Positions 1 through 9,385 of a stretch of DNA of 9,430 bases are shown here, piece by piece. Positions within the stretch are counted from its first letter, which is position 1, and every line of letters starts with the position of its first letter. The position numbers and the translations under genes are program-made. The notes under the pieces were generated by a model that saw only the letters and a program-made list of their open reading frames with translations, made no database searches and had not been told where the DNA came from. Source of the stretch: Nitrospinota bacterium (lineage in GTDB: Bacteria; Tectomicrobia; Entotheonellia; J063); NCBI GenBank assembly GCA_003696125.1, contig RFHZ01000329.1, forward strand, positions 1 through 9,430, in the 5' to 3' direction.

Positions 1-350
1 ACAAAGTCAAACTCCTGCTTCAGCGCATCACTCAACTGCGCCATCTGTTCCGGGGTCACCGCCGTCTTCTCATCGGCCTGCGATGCCGGGAGGAGGAAGA
101 GGGTTCCCACCCGGCGATCTTTGATCAGGGCCTGCCGGAGCTGGCAACGGCCTTTGATCACATCGACGAGGTTATAGACGATGCGGTTCTCCAGTCCCAT
201 CACCACATCGAGATTACGCAGACCGATATCGACATCGACCACCACGACTCGTTTGCCGCTTTGGGCCAAGGCGATACCGAGATTGGCGGTGGTAGTCGTT
301 TTCCCCACCCCTCCCTTTCCTGAAGTAATAACGATCGTTCGTCCATTCAT
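1..350 (-). CDS. minD: Septum site-determining ATPase MinD (5' part only)
   Basis: MinD is the membrane-cycling ATPase that recruits MinC and is released from the membrane by MinE, so positioning the division septum. Only the first 116 residues are in the window; the gene runs off the left edge. The deviant Walker A motif GKGGVGKTT is at residues 11-19, with signature Lys12 and Lys17. It is followed by VDVDIGLRNLD (about 38-48), MGLENR, and LLPASQ (about 87-92), all matching the MinD pattern closely and separating it from ParA relatives. The ATG at 348-350 is preceded by GGAATAGGAGT, and the N-terminus needs no extension. The C-terminal amphipathic membrane-targeting helix lies outside the window. 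The gene follows minE by 77 bp on the same strand, so it is last in the cluster seen here, whereas minD normally precedes minE. Confidence 0.96.
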   Translation of the reverse strand, partial: MNGRTIVITSGKGGVGKTTTTANLGIALAQSGKRVVVVDVDIGLRNLDVVMGLENRIVYNLVDVIKGRCQLRQALIKDRRVGTLFLLPASQADEKTAVTPEQMAQLSDALKQEFDF

Positions 351-427: not shown

Positions 428-760
428 TCAGAGCAGTAATGACCAGAGCCGCGAGGTCAAGGGTGCTTGAGGCGGGGGCTGACCTTCCTGTCGAGGCACT
501 CGACCCGGTTTACTGCGTCGGAAGGGAAGGCTCACCACCAGGAGTGAGAGGTCGGTATGCTGTCGCACCCGGATGTCCAGTCCTTCCCTGTCCAGGTCAA
601 AATAGCGGGAGAAGACTTCGATGAGGTCCAACTTCAGAGCATCGAGCGCCTCGGGAGCAATCTGGGTTCGATCATGTACCAAAATAAACTGGAGTCGATC
701 CTTCACCACCATCCGGCTGTTGGATCGGGGTACCAATCGACGGAAGAGCTGTTTCAGCAC
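428..760 (-). CDS. minE: Cell division topological specificity factor MinE, GTG start
   Basis: MinE stimulates the MinD ATPase and confines the division inhibitor to the right place. With the GTG start at 758-760 the protein has 110 residues. LKQLFRRLV (2-10) is the likely amphipathic membrane-targeting segment. MVVKDRLQFILVHDR (17-31) matches the MinD-binding, anti-MinCD segment. About residues 36-82 (LDALKLDLIEVFSRYF, then DIRVRQ and LSLLVVSLPF) fit the topological-specificity dimer domain. An AAGGA box lies 7 nt before the GTG, and the chosen start puts the N-terminus in register with typical MinE. The frame is open upstream to an ATG at 853 inside the preceding gene, but that extension (AWRSPRRALL...) does not resemble MinE. 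Typical MinE has about 80-90 residues; here a Pro/Gln/Arg-rich tail of about 28 residues follows the core. The gene lies 74 bp after the minC-like gene. Confidence 0.9.
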   Translation of the reverse strand: MLKQLFRRLVPRSNSRMVVKDRLQFILVHDRTQIAPEALDALKLDLIEVFSRYFDLDREGLDIRVRQHTDLSLLVVSLPFRRSKPGRVPRQEGQPPPQAPLTSRLWSLLL

Positions 761-834: not shown

Positions 835-1509
835 TTAATGTTTGCCATACCACAGACGGAAGCTTTCGATGCGCACCTGATCCGCCACCACTCTGGCGAT
901 CTCTGGGATAGCGGTCCGCTTCAACTCCTGCTTAAACGCCTGCCGGATACAGGGACCGATGCGCAGTTGCATCGGTTGCAGGTCCAGGGCAAAAATCACG
1001 GCCGAGGTGTTGTCCGGCATCCCTGCCTGGGCCACGCCCCGTAATTTCCCCAGCGCAAAGATATCCCCCCCTGCCACCACTTCTGCCCCGGGATTGATAT
1101 CCCCGATAAGCACCAGATTCTCGTCGGCAAAGATCCGCTCTCCGGAACGGAGGGTTTGCCTGACCAGGAGGGTATTGTTGATCGTCTCCCCGCTTTTGAT
1201 CCGCTGCTTCAGCAGCTCGATCTCACTCTTCAAGCGGGCCACCACCATGTCCTTGAATATCTCTTTCTCCTCGTCACTCTTGAGATGCTCCAGCTCCTTT
1301 TCCAGGGCCTCGATCTTGCGCTCCTGCTGGCGGACAATATCCTCGAACTTCGTGGTAGAGTGCTTTATCCGGTTTTCGTACGAGCGCTGCGTATTGCGAA
1401 GACGAGCGATTAAAACCTTCTGACGGCGATAGGAAAGAAAGAGGAGGAGACTCTCTACTCCGATAAGCACAAGGGATAAGAAGAAGATCACCAGAATCGG
1501 TAAGGTCAT
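835..1509 (-). CDS. MinC-like protein: transmembrane helix, coiled coil and MinC C-terminal domain
   Basis: The protein has 224 residues in three parts. Residues 3-27 are one hydrophobic helix (ILVIFFLSLVLIGVESLLLF) followed by YRRQK, so by the positive-inside rule the rest is cytoplasmic. Residues 43-107 are charged and heptad-like, a predicted coiled coil. Residues 113-188 are a MinC C-terminal domain, with LRSGERIFADENLVLIGD, NPGAEVVAGGDI, GKLRGVAQAG and IFALDLQPMQLRIG; this Gly-rich beta-helix dimerises and binds MinD in known MinC. The standard MinC N-terminal domain, which inhibits FtsZ assembly, is absent. The ATG at 1507-1509 has GGGAGG upstream and matches the start of the upstream paralogue; an ATG at 1528-1530 would add seven residues with a poorly placed ribosome site. 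MinE and MinD follow, supporting a Min function. Whether it inhibits FtsZ is unknown. A separate conventional MinC elsewhere in the genome is possible. Confidence 0.88.
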   Translation of the reverse strand: MTLPILVIFFLSLVLIGVESLLLFLSYRRQKVLIARLRNTQRSYENRIKHSTTKFEDIVRQQERKIEALEKELEHLKSDEEKEIFKDMVVARLKSEIELLKQRIKSGETINNTLLVRQTLRSGERIFADENLVLIGDINPGAEVVAGGDIFALGKLRGVAQAGMPDNTSAVIFALDLQPMQLRIGPCIRQAFKQELKRTAIPEIARVVADQVRIESFRLWYGKH

Positions 1510-1652: not shown

Positions 1653-2258
1653 TCAGGAAATCGCCTCCTTTTTCAGCGAGGCACATTCTCGTTGCAAGAG
1701 ATCGCGCTCCTCCTTTAGCTGGGCGATCTCTACCATCTTCTCATTCAAGGCGAGCTGGAGCGCCTCCATCTCCTTTTCCCCTTCCGCCAATCGCTGTTGC
1801 TGCTGCAGGGCCTGCTCTTCCAGGAGCTGTTTCAGCTCTACCACCTGCATTTCCAGCTCGATGTTCCGTTCTTTCAACTGGAAGAATTCTTCCGGATCGA
1901 TGGTGGCCCCGCCTTCCTCTGCTTCCCGTCTCTTCAAGGTTTCTACCTCTCTCTGCAGCATCTCCACCTCGTTCTTCAGGCGGGCAATGGTCTCCTGCAG
2001 CATCCGCTTTTCTCGATCATTCTTGAGACGGACGAGCTGTTCTTCGAGTTGACGGATCTTCTCCTCGCGTTCTCGTATCGCCTCCTCCATCTTGGCGATG
2101 TAGGAGTGCATACGTCGCCTGTAGGAGCGCTGGCTATGACGCACCCGCATGATCAGGGTCTTCTTCTCCTGGTGCGAGAGGAAAAACAAGAGGCTTTCGA
2201 TTCCGATGGCCACCAGGTAAAGAAAAGAGAAGATCAGAAATACCCTTTCCGTAATCAT
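1653..2258 (-). CDS. Membrane-anchored coiled-coil protein, paralogue of the MinC-like N-terminus
   Basis: I do not recognise this as a named family. The protein has 201 residues. A single hydrophobic helix at about 5-28 (FLIFSFLYLVAIGIESLLFF) is followed by a basic stretch, giving an expected short outside N-terminus and cytoplasmic body. Long heptad-patterned charged segments at about 48-111 and 124-197, separated by a Gly-containing linker (EEGGATIDPEE), predict a rod-like coiled coil. Residues 19-107 align with the MinC-like protein downstream with about one gap, sharing IGxESLLxFLS, QRSY, LKxD and ARLKxE, so the two arose by duplication. The ATG at 2256-2258 is chosen because GGGAGG lies just upstream and the helix starts at once; an ATG at 2312 would prepend 18 polar residues. 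It is first in the min cluster and 143 bp upstream of the MinC-like start. A scaffold or hetero-coiled-coil partner is an inference. Confidence 0.85.
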   Translation of the reverse strand: MITERVFLIFSFLYLVAIGIESLLFFLSHQEKKTLIMRVRHSQRSYRRRMHSYIAKMEEAIREREEKIRQLEEQLVRLKNDREKRMLQETIARLKNEVEMLQREVETLKRREAEEGGATIDPEEFFQLKERNIELEMQVVELKQLLEEQALQQQQRLAEGEKEMEALQLALNEKMVEIAQLKEERDLLQRECASLKKEAIS

Positions 2259-2749: not shown

Positions 2750-3187
2750 ATGCCTCCCCTGACCCGACAGGAACTGGACACCTTTCTGCGCGAGGGAAAA
2801 TACGTGGCCAAGCTGGCGACGGTAAAGCCTGATGGGGCTCCCTACGTCAATCCGGTCTGGTACGAGTATGATGGGACCCATCTGTACGTGATCGCCCGTG
2901 CCCGCTCGCAATTTCTCCAGCATATCCGTGAAGACCCCCGGGTCGCCCTCTGTATCGATACGCCGACCCCTCCCTATACCCGGGTCCTCATCGAGGGGAT
3001 CGCCGAGATCATCGAGCAGGATTGGGTGGAGATGGGAAAGCGTATGGCCCTCCGCTACCGGGGCGAGGAGGGATTGGCCTATATCGAGGCGACCCGTAAC
3101 CGTCCCCGGGCCATGATCCGGATCACTCCCCACCACATCACCTCCTGGAAGGGCGGGGAGTGGCACCGACGCTATATCGATGCGTAG
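2750..3187 (+). CDS. PPOX-class split-barrel flavin/F420-binding oxidoreductase
   Basis: The 145-residue protein matches the pyridoxamine-5'-phosphate-oxidase-like split beta-barrel superfamily. Landmarks are YVAKLATVKPDGAPYVNPVW (18-37), YEYDGTHLYVIARARSQ (38-54, the phosphate/cofactor-binding loop region), NxxxDPRVAL-like HIREDPRVALCID (57-69), VLIEGIAEII (about 77-86) and the late RPRAMIRITPHHITSW. Small members with this pattern are often annotated as F420-dependent or FMN-dependent; the sequence cannot settle cofactor or substrate. The ATG at 2750 is preceded by AGGAGG (2738-2743), which overlaps the stop of the HTH gene. An in-frame ATG at 2690 would add 20 Arg-rich residues overlapping that gene and is rejected. 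No cytochrome or F420-biosynthesis genes are nearby to help. Confidence 0.85.
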   Translation: MPPLTRQELDTFLREGKYVAKLATVKPDGAPYVNPVWYEYDGTHLYVIARARSQFLQHIREDPRVALCIDTPTPPYTRVLIEGIAEIIEQDWVEMGKRMALRYRGEEGLAYIEATRNRPRAMIRITPHHITSWKGGEWHRRYIDA

Positions 3188-6664: not shown

Positions 6665-6853
6665 ATGTCCCAGGAACGACTACAGGCCATGCTACGACAC
6701 ATCATCACCGAGATCCGCAGCATTCCGGCCAGCGATGCCGATCTGGAGCGGGTATCCACCCAAATGCAGGTGCTGCTCACTTCCCTCACCTCCCTGCGAG
6801 GACTCGACTTCAGCACCGTCGAAATAGCCGGCATCCTGCAGCTAGAGGAGTAG
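6665..6853 (+). CDS. Small GatC/AtzG-like amidase partner protein
   Basis: The 62-residue, mostly helical protein is translated from an ideal site, AAGGAGG 7 nt before the ATG. True GatC has about 95 residues and stabilises GatA in the tRNA amidotransferase. This protein is shorter and lacks the C-terminal GatC segment. The layout of two helices followed by LDFSTVEIAGILQLEE is closer to small AtzG-type (DUF4089-like) subunits, which bind and stabilise the biuret amidase AtzE and descend from the GatC fold. Its stop is 4 bp before the amidase start, and its last codons supply that gene's GAGGAG ribosome site, so the two are translationally coupled, as expected for subunits of one complex. The family assignment rests on size, position and pattern rather than strong motif matches. 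Confidence 0.62.
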   Translation: MSQERLQAMLRHIITEIRSIPASDADLERVSTQMQVLLTSLTSLRGLDFSTVEIAGILQLEE

Positions 6854-6857
6854 AGAG

Positions 6858-8270
6858 ATGACCGAGAATGAACTGATGCAGTATACCATCGGGAAACTCG
6901 CTTCCCTGTTCCAGGCCAGGGCCCTCTCCCCGGTCGAGGTTACCCAGGCACTCCTTGCCCGTATCGATCGCCTGGACAAGAGGGTGAACGCCTTTATTAC
7001 TGTTCTTGCCGAACAGGCCCTGGAAGCGGCACGGGACGCCGAGGCGGCGATCATGCGTGGGGATTATCGAGGACCGCTCCACGGCATACCGTTCGCCGTA
7101 AAAGACATCTTTGCCACCCAAGGGGTGCGGACGACCTGTGCTTCCAAGGTCTGGCCAGATCGTATCTTCCCTGTTGATGCCACGGTGATCGAGCGCTTAC
7201 AACAGGCAGGAGCCGTTCTCCTGGGCAAGCTGAACATGCATGAATTTGCCATGGGTGCTACCTCGACCAGTTCTCACTACGGACCGGTCCGCAATCCCTG
7301 GGACCTGGAACGCGTTCCGGGAGGATCGAGTGGAGGGTCTGCTGCTGCCATAGCGGCGACACTGGCGCTGGGAACATTGGGGACAGATACCGGGGGCTCG
7401 GTACGGATCCCTGCTTCCCTCTGTGGGATTGTCGGGCTCAAACCGACGTATGGGCGGGTCAGCCGCCATGGGGTGGTCACCCTCTCCTGGTCACTCGACC
7501 ATGTCGGGCCGATGACCAGGACGGTAGAAGATGCGGCACTCATGCTTCAGGTCATGGCTGGGAAGGACCCCCAGGACCCGACGACCAGTTCTCTACCTGT
7601 CCCCGACTACCGGGCAGCGCTGGAAGAGGATCTCCGGGGCATCACCCTCGGTATCCCTACCGACAGCTTCTTCACCGAGGTAGATGCCGAAGTCGAAAGT
7701 GCCGTGAGCGATGCTGTGCAGCTTCTGCAAGGACTGGGAGCCGCTGTGGAAGCGATCTCTCTCCCCCACATCGAGCTGGCACACCCGGTAGGCACCATCA
7801 TCTCCTCCACGGAAGCTTACACCTATCATGAGCCGTTCCTGCAGCGTCAGGTGCAGGATTATCAACCGGATGTGCGGGATCGCCTGCTCATCGGGGCGTC
7901 TCTGCTGGCCTCAGACTACGTCAGGGCGCAACAGTACCGCAATCTCTTCCGCCGCGAAGTCTCCCAGGTGATGAGACGGGTCGATGCCATCGTGACCCCT
8001 ACCACCCCGATCCCTGCCCCTAAGATCGGGGAGAAAACGGTCACCATCCGGGGTAAAGAAGAAGAGGTGCTCAAGATATTGAGTCGATTGACCCGGCCCT
8101 GGAATCTCACCGGCCAGCCGGTCATCTCTCTCCCCTGTGGCTTTACGCAATCAGGTCTCCCCATCGGGCTCCAGATCGTGGGGAAGGCGTTTGCAGAGAC
8201 GACCATCCTGCGGATCGCCCATGCTTATGAGAGGCATACCCCCTGGCATGAACAGCGGCCAGCACTCTGA
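6858..8270 (+). CDS. Amidase signature family hydrolase (GatA/AtzE-like)
   Basis: The 470-residue protein has the complete amidase signature and a Ser-cisSer-Lys triad. Lys82 is in IPFAVKDIF, Ser157 in PGGSSGGSAAA, and nucleophile Ser181 in GTDTGGSVRIPASLCG; the 24-residue spacing of the serines matches GatA and fatty acid amide hydrolase. Residues 191-200 (IVGLKPTYGR) and the late RPWNLTGQPVISLPCG and LPIGLQIVG are also typical. The enzyme would hydrolyse a C-N amide bond in the cytoplasm. Automatic annotation would probably call it GatA, but no gatB is present and the preceding small gene resembles AtzG. A catabolic amidase with an AtzE/AtzG-like arrangement is therefore more likely. The downstream racemase-family gene also points to catabolism. 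The substrate cannot be read from the sequence. The ATG at 6858 follows GAGGAG by 7 nt. Confidence 0.9.
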   Translation: MTENELMQYTIGKLASLFQARALSPVEVTQALLARIDRLDKRVNAFITVLAEQALEAARDAEAAIMRGDYRGPLHGIPFAVKDIFATQGVRTTCASKVWPDRIFPVDATVIERLQQAGAVLLGKLNMHEFAMGATSTSSHYGPVRNPWDLERVPGGSSGGSAAAIAATLALGTLGTDTGGSVRIPASLCGIVGLKPTYGRVSRHGVVTLSWSLDHVGPMTRTVEDAALMLQVMAGKDPQDPTTSSLPVPDYRAALEEDLRGITLGIPTDSFFTEVDAEVESAVSDAVQLLQGLGAAVEAISLPHIELAHPVGTIISSTEAYTYHEPFLQRQVQDYQPDVRDRLLIGASLLASDYVRAQQYRNLFRREVSQVMRRVDAIVTPTTPIPAPKIGEKTVTIRGKEEEVLKILSRLTRPWNLTGQPVISLPCGFTQSGLPIGLQIVGKAFAETTILRIAHAYERHTPWHEQRPAL

Positions 8271-8320: not shown

Positions 8321-9385
8321 ATGCGACTCAGCAACCTCATCACCGCTATCGATGCGCATGCCTGCGGTCAACACGGTCGGGTTATCATTGGCGGCGTGGT
8401 CGATGTGCCGGGCAAGACCATGTTTGAGAAGAAGGTCTATCTGGAAACCCATATGGATGCCCTGCGCAAGCGGATGCTGCGCGAGCCCCGCGGGTACCCT
8501 GCTGCCTGCTGCAACCTGATCCTTCCTCCCACCCATCCGGAAGCCGATGCCGGTTTTGTCATCATGGAACAGACCAAGTACCCTCCCATGTCGGGGAGCA
8601 ATACCATCTGTGTGGCCACCGTTCTGCTCGAGACCGGCATGATTCCCAAACAGGAGCCGGAAACCGAATTCGTCCTGGAGGCACCGGCTGGACTGATCCG
8701 CATCCAGGCAGCCGTGGCCAATGAGAAGGTCACCCGGGTCACCTTCCAGAACGTACCCGCCTTTGCCCTCTACCTGGATGCCCGGGTAGAGGTCCCGGAT
8801 TTGGGAACGGTAACGGTTGATGTCGCTTATGGAGGGCAGTTCTACGTCATTACCGAGGCGGCCCCCCTGGGACTGCGCCTGACTCCGGATGAAGGCCGGG
8901 ATCTGGTGCGGCTGGGAGAGATGATCAAAGCTGCCACACAAGAGCAGCTCTCCATTGTCCACCCGGAAAACCCGGAGATCACCGGGATCGGAGGAACCCT
9001 GTTTTCCGGGCCTCCCACTCACCCGGACGCCGCTCTTAAGAACACGGTTGTCCTCTCCACCGGGACCCTTACCTGGGAGCGACCAGCTTCCTGGACCGGG
9101 ATTCTGGATCGGTCCCCCTGTGGTACCGGCACCTGCGCCAAGATGGCGGCCCTACATGCCAAAGGGCAGCTCCCCCTCCATCATGACTTCCCCCACGAAG
9201 GCATCCTGGGCACGATCTTTACCGGTCGCCTGATCGGCGAGACCAGGGTCGGATCGCATACGGCGGTGATCCCCATGCTGAGCGGACAGGGATGGATCAC
9301 CGGGATCACCCAGTACGTAGTCGATCCTGACGATCCCTTCCCCGAGGGCTTTACCGTCGGCGATATGTGGGGAGATATGCGGTAA
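8321..9385 (+). CDS. Proline racemase family protein, Ser/Cys active-site type
   Basis: The 354-residue protein aligns over the full proline racemase fold, a pseudo-symmetric two-lobe enzyme that moves a proton at the alpha carbon of proline or hydroxyproline, or dehydrates 3-hydroxyproline. The first catalytic site, CGH in classical racemases, reads MSGSNTICV with Ser91 and Ser93. The second site, DRSPCGTGTCAKMAALHAKG, keeps Cys267. Asp11-His13 (IDAHACG) and the VAYGGQFYVI strand (168-177) are normal. Family members with Ser at the first position are reported mainly as hydroxyproline epimerases rather than proline racemase, and Thr marks 3-hydroxyproline dehydratase; this is family knowledge, not proof here. 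The gene follows the amidase by 50 bp with no terminator between, and has AAGGAGG 10 nt before the ATG, so co-transcription is likely. Confidence 0.9.
   Translation: MRLSNLITAIDAHACGQHGRVIIGGVVDVPGKTMFEKKVYLETHMDALRKRMLREPRGYPAACCNLILPPTHPEADAGFVIMEQTKYPPMSGSNTICVATVLLETGMIPKQEPETEFVLEAPAGLIRIQAAVANEKVTRVTFQNVPAFALYLDARVEVPDLGTVTVDVAYGGQFYVITEAAPLGLRLTPDEGRDLVRLGEMIKAATQEQLSIVHPENPEITGIGGTLFSGPPTHPDAALKNTVVLSTGTLTWERPASWTGILDRSPCGTGTCAKMAALHAKGQLPLHHDFPHEGILGTIFTGRLIGETRVGSHTAVIPMLSGQGWITGITQYVVDPDDPFPEGFTVGDMWGDMR

Follow-up and report, generated by a model that had tools for sequence, protein, structure and literature searches.

A predicted membrane-anchored MinC-like protein encoded in a likely second Min module of a Nitrospinota genome bin

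The anchored MinC-like gene and its module

The analyzed window is a stretch of 9,430 nucleotides from a draft genome of a Nitrospinota bacterium and carries, at its left end and on the minus strand, a minC-like gene together with minE and minD. The genes and features of this cluster, which continues on contig C186 of the same genome bin, and the conventional min genes on contig C641 of the bin are as follows:

3..350, minus strand: MinD, first 116 aa, with the remainder on contig C186 and a complete length of 277 aa (TIGR01968, 1.7e-53 on the N-terminal part)
428..757, minus strand: MinE (MinE1), probable GTG start at 757 after AAAGGAT, contact segment VKDRLQFIL kept (Pfam MinE, 6.9e-19; aligns to E. 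coli MinE of 3r9j)
835..1509, minus strand: membrane-anchored MinC-like protein (transmembrane helix, coiled coil and MinC_C), 224 aa (ORF translation, Pfam, hydropathy, full-length model)
859..1173, minus strand: MinC_C beta-helix domain, aa 113-217 (Pfam; PDB sequence matches 4v02, 1hf2, 6riq and 5xdm; Foldseek)
1138..1149, minus strand: RSGE motif, aa 121-124, counterpart of the MinD-contacting RSGQ of E. coli (alignment of 17 MinCs; PMC5548801, PMC6803595)
1195..1428, minus strand: coiled coil, aa 28-105 (heptad analysis; AlphaFold2 helices)
1429..1497, minus strand: transmembrane helix, aa 5-27, with conserved IG[VI]ESLL, then basic YRRQK (hydropathy; helix in the AlphaFold2 model)
1653..2258, minus strand: paralog of the N-terminal half, sharing its transmembrane helix and coiled coil and continuing with a further coiled-coil stretch of about 95 aa, without MinC_C (BLASTP; shuffle test)
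Contig C186, 2373-3077, minus strand: second MinE (MinE2) with an in-frame fusion to a zinc-ribbon-like stretch and a helix-turn-helix (HTH) domain (Pfam; C186 joins window positions 1-55)
Contig C641, 2192-3785: conventional minC-minD with minE adjoining (Pfam MinC_N, 3.7e-13; MinC_C, 1.5e-33)

The coding sequence 835-1509 is a real gene. Inspection of the sequence shows a ribosome site of the GGAGG type 8 nt upstream of the ATG at 1509, and the start assumed in the earlier note is therefore the likely one. The MinC_C part is under purifying selection, since its comparison with the conventional MinC paralog of the same bin gave a dN of 0.29 against a saturated dS. A scan for promoters and terminators gave no signal above chance.

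The hydropathy maximum of the protein lies at aa 5-23 (KD 2.78) and is followed by YRRQK. Because these basic residues flank the transmembrane helix (positive-inside), an N-out/C-in topology is predicted, which places MinC_C and its coiled-coil stalk on the cytoplasmic side. AlphaFold2 modelled the N-domain, using two sequences, as a helix of residues 2-74, a break and a second helix of residues 79-105 (mean pLDDT 88.5); the full-length model is confident for the C-terminal beta-helix but not for the first 52 residues. No MinC_N fold appeared in the N-terminal half. Pfam MinC_N gave no match in the protein at E<=1, and an iterative MinC_N HMM that accepts 54/63 sampled MinCs returned E=2.5, while a profile-profile comparison (hhalign) of the N-domain pair with nine MinC_N sequences gave a probability of 0.1%. 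The idea of a diverged MinC_N was rejected on the hhalign, iterative HMM and AlphaFold2 results.

The C-terminal half matches Pfam MinC_C (PF03775) over aa 116-214 with E=1.6e-28 and 99.2 bits against a cut-off of 33.2. Foldseek placed the beta-helix, modelled with pLDDT above 90 across most of aa 121-190, on the MinC of 4v02 (E=4.8e-11) and also on 1hf2, 6riq and 5xdm; the closest solved structure is the MinC of the A. aeolicus MinC:MinD complex (4v02). NCBIfam MinC models align mainly to this half, and the cut-off of the equivalog TIGR01222 was narrowly missed (93.5 vs 95.25 bits).

The RSGQ motif of MinC_C is known to bind MinD helix 7 (S148, D154, I159) at a site overlapping that of the MinE contact helix (PMC6803595, PMC5548801). 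Across 17 MinCs, the R, S and G of RSG[QE] are invariant; the anchored protein reads RSGE and keeps all columns invariant across these 17 within its MinC_C. On the partner side, helix 7 of the module's MinD (PEVSAIRDADRVIGLL, on C186) keeps the counterparts of E. coli S148 and D154, and the I159 counterpart is L, as in A. aeolicus. Judged from its residues, MinC_C is complete with its MinD-contact motif intact, and since the contact residues are conserved on both partners, the domain probably binds ATP-MinD dimers through its RSGE face.

Altogether, these results agree with most of what the earlier note had proposed for this gene, namely a single N-terminal transmembrane helix (helical also in the AlphaFold2 model), a MinC C-terminal domain in the last half, the lack of an N-terminal MinC domain, and minE and minD after the gene. 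The HMM searches suggested there for both MinC domains returned only MinC_C. The coiled coil it described was found as well, although at about 78 residues (about aa 28-105 by heptad analysis) instead of about 65, and the permanent membrane anchoring it assumed is well supported by the sequence.

The minD of the window is cut by the contig end. A walk along contig ends linked contigs C186 and C476 to the window, with the join to C186 based on an overlap of 55 identical bases, agreement with the MinD profile and a matching reading frame. Directly after MinD follows MinE2 (Pfam MinE, 4.1e-15), whose extension comprises a cysteine-rich, zinc-ribbon-like stretch and then an HTH domain (HTH_23, 1.9e-5; weak IS1 transposase similarity). 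Neither the rest of the bin nor the class relatives yielded this extension, and it is either a real fusion or an old IS remnant. The completed module thus reads TM-coiled coil, TM-coiled coil-MinC_C, MinE1, MinD, MinE2-HTH, with MinE1 between the minC-like gene and minD and with the MinE contact segments retained.

The gene directly upstream (1653-2258) resembles the N-terminal half of the anchored protein (44% over 107 aa, E=1e-25, BLASTP). The score of this N-domain pair lies about 20 SD above shuffles preserving composition and heptads. For the membrane part by itself, the score was 114, compared with at most 59 in shuffles. A profile of the N-domain matched only these two genes in the draft genome. 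Their longest exact DNA match is 9 bases, and the duplication is therefore old and could not have confused the assembly. As the adjoining gene shares the transmembrane-coiled-coil part, a local tandem duplication followed by fusion onto minC is the simplest account of the anchored gene.

Elsewhere in the window, a PPOX protein of the F420-dependent Rv1155 type is encoded at 2750-3187 (TIGR03618, 93.5 bits), suggesting F420 use. Positions 6858-8270 encode a GatA-like amidase, preceded in the place of GatC by a 62-aa ORF (6665-6853) without Pfam match and followed by a proline-racemase-family gene (8321-9385).

Two min loci in one bin and the rarity of the fused architecture

With the conventional genes on C641, the bin contains three MinEs and two MinDs in total. 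The two MinDs are 80% identical, contact helix included, form sisters in a small tree (support 0.985) and are under purifying selection (dN 0.13 vs dS about 1.9). The bin comprises 990 contigs and is 94.8% complete and 7.98% contaminated, and we judged contamination by composition and markers. The min-bearing half of C641 is ordinary for the bin in tetranucleotide composition (correlation r=0.67, 32nd percentile; class relatives 0.20-0.33), a test that is decisive against a distant contaminant but not against a close relative. The ftsZ gene is present in two non-overlapping pieces with no second copy seen, rpoB showed no second copy, and dnaX gave one full-strength match and weak ones resembling related ATPases, again with no second copy seen. 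We therefore regard both min loci as probably belonging to the same organism.

The alternative, in which C641 is contamination by a related species and this organism has no MinC other than the anchored protein, appears somewhat doubtful. It would fit the contamination level of the bin and the class relatives, each of which carries a single min locus with a conventional MinC, as well as C641 itself, which the contig-end walk joined to no other contig and whose right half is atypical in composition (5th percentile). Against it stand the ordinary composition of the half that actually bears the min genes and the three markers, none of which showed a second copy.

In the class relatives, a dnaA-like gene lies just before minCDE and lexA-, radA- and recA-like genes lie after it; this gene order is kept at neither min locus of the bin. 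Besides that, contig C668 encodes at 1757-2476 a DivIVA-like protein, read from the sequence, adjoining proC- and yggS-like genes, and DivIVA and MinE thus seem to coexist in this genome.

The earlier note held that the N-terminal domain of MinC had been replaced, which is true of the gene but not clearly of the cell, as the bin also encodes a conventional MinC with MinD and MinE. It had counted a conventional MinC elsewhere, combined with no MinD binding by the anchored protein, as evidence against its reading; the former exists on C641, whereas the conserved contact residues point to retained binding. We accordingly soften the claim: given the 8% contamination of the bin, the anchored MinC_C protein is likely, though not certainly, an addition to the conventional MinC and part of a second Min module.

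The fused architecture was found in one genome only, with no orthologue in our searches. MinC_C occurred at E<=1e-8 in 62/386 genomes, and among the 63 MinC_C proteins of these genomes, just one, the anchored protein, has a segment of transmembrane strength before MinC_C (KD 2.78; next 1.67). Nine of the 63 lack a MinC_N call, namely the anchored protein, two that look like E. coli-type MinC_N when their sequences are read, three whose N-terminal part is short and three more, and none of these other eight (0/8) has a transmembrane helix. The N-domain profile gave only partial coiled-coil matches with weak E-values, some across stop codons, in the 386 genomes. Two scans of 84,980 species genomes yielded pattern matches but no relative by tblastn, with patterns that reach close relatives only. 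Among plasmids, 332 records matched, the best 10 of 332 mainly over MinC_C, and none listed covers 80% of the query. In class relatives, only conventional MinC was found and the fused architecture was absent. The architecture of the anchored protein is well formed and apparently rare.

Possible roles of the anchored protein

The best-supported reading is a membrane-fixed MinD receptor without filament-breaking activity, because RSGE, the S148 and D154 counterparts, the MinE contact segments and the FtsZ tail are all kept. In its full form, this reading describes a second Min module that acts through a MinD receptor embedded in the membrane, with capture and release in place of a soluble FtsZ breaker and with division as the likeliest output; we give it about an even chance. 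Here, a duplicated transmembrane-coiled-coil gene fused to MinC_C would have produced a receptor inserted into the inner membrane, with its coiled coil and MinC_C predicted to be cytoplasmic. Since the N-domain is common to the anchored protein and its upstream paralog, the receptor may form homo-oligomers and/or hetero-oligomers with this paralog. Its RSGE face, given the conserved residues, would bind ATP-MinD dimers, and the cognate MinE(s), competing for this same face of MinD, would release it. In this way, MinD density would govern the capture and release of a membrane scaffold, not the recruitment of a soluble FtsZ breaker.

In the known case, MinC_C together with MinD engages the FtsZ tail and MinC_N shortens the filaments (PMC6803595, PMC5548801). 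Lacking MinC_N, the anchored protein should not shorten FtsZ filaments, an activity that the conventional MinCDE of the same bin probably supplies. Division would still be the likeliest output, as the MinC_C-MinD surface could engage the FtsZ tail, which is conserved in the FtsZ of the bin (C-terminal end DVPTFIRRQLE), and such engagement might displace tail-binding anchors or mark zones. In E. coli, MinC_C by itself inhibits division only if it is overproduced together with MinD (PMC6803595), and an effector consisting of MinC_C may therefore be weak. On the other hand, a ZipA-TM-MinC fusion can block division in the absence of MinD, and MinD stimulates it further (PMC6803595).

A second possibility, which we consider unlikely, is that one cell contains two MinDE modules with different tasks: the conventional MinCDE would handle division, and the second MinD/MinE with the anchored MinC_C as adaptor would position a membrane cargo or transmembrane-coiled-coil scaffold other than FtsZ, its MinE2 carrying a DNA-binding-like domain. 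The upstream paralog would then form part of the cargo or serve to link it. Two Min modules in one bin, the loss of MinC_N, a dedicated transmembrane-coiled-coil partner and a MinE2 fused to a zinc-ribbon/HTH extension, which is out of place in a plain division module, are consistent with such a repurposing, and MinDE waves are able to move permanently attached membrane proteins in vitro (PMC6803595). However, no cargo gene was identified in the operon, the genes past the cluster resemble ordinary metabolism, and E. coli MinC_C itself binds the FtsZ tail.

Less probable still is a role as regulator of the conventional system. The anchored MinC_C would then produce no output itself but would compete with conventional MinC and MinE for MinD, or hold MinD at the membrane in the way that MinJ fixes it to one place in Bacillus, and so change the wavelength or damp the oscillation. 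The 80% identity of the two MinDs, which extends to the contact helix, and the retention of the MinD motif after loss of the effector domain would allow this, and MinJ is a precedent for a transmembrane MinD partner (PMC2844427). Yet the module has a MinD and two MinEs of its own, which would be superfluous for a pure decoy, and there would be nothing to regulate if C641 belongs to another organism. Finally, a misassembly or decayed gene without functional fusion, as the fragmentation into 990 contigs might suggest, is highly improbable in view of the continuous ORF with its own ribosome site, the purifying selection on MinC_C, and longest exact DNA matches of 9 bases (N-domains) and 13 bases (other minC), far under the assembly overlap of 55 bases. 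A chimera of ORF 835-1509 formed through a repeat was rejected on the same match lengths.

If the second module does position a transmembrane-coiled-coil scaffold through its MinC_C adaptor, Min patterning would be read out by something besides soluble FtsZ inhibition. If both modules operate in one cell, it would also have to be asked how two MinDE systems, their MinDs 80% identical, prevent cross-talk or turn it to use.

Comparison with known systems

In known systems, the Min gradient is read out by soluble MinC, which breaks FtsZ filaments with its N-domain. Like the MinCs of E. coli, T. maritima and A. aeolicus, the anchored protein has the MinC_C beta-helix with RSG[QE] and all invariant columns, and its gene adjoins minD and minE; it also shares with A. 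aeolicus MinC a helix after the beta-helix. Unlike these proteins, it has an N-terminal transmembrane helix and a coiled coil in place of MinC_N and is predicted to reside permanently at the membrane, whereas MinC is recruited there by MinD. A natural membrane-fixed MinC_C of this kind would separate MinD binding from filament breaking, two activities that are usually tied together. No natural transmembrane MinC is reported in the literature searched, which consisted mostly of open-access papers. A close counterpart is the laboratory fusion ZipA-TM-MinC (Johnson et al. 2004, in PMC6803595), in which one N-terminal transmembrane helix likewise anchors the MinC portion. Whereas that fusion is man-made and described as an FtsZ inhibitor, the anchored protein is encoded by a natural gene and contains only MinC_C on a coiled-coil stalk, and it can be seen as a natural near-equivalent of such constructs.

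In its predicted layout of one N-terminal helix and a cytoplasmic stalk, the anchored protein resembles ZipA and EzrA. Proteins of this type are N-out and single-pass, have a cytoplasmic stalk or coiled coil and may touch the FtsZ tail. Unlike in ZipA, however, the C-terminal domain is MinC_C and not the FtsZ-binding fold; neither the ZipA FtsZ-binding domain nor EzrA repeats gave a Pfam match, and no such fold was among the PDB matches of the protein. MinJ has six predicted transmembrane helices and a PDZ domain, lacks MinC_C and acts in a system without MinE; the anchored protein has a single transmembrane helix by hydropathy and no PDZ domain by Pfam. By analogy, the anchored protein may work like MinJ of Bacillus subtilis, a transmembrane partner tying MinD to a membrane landmark (PMC2844427).
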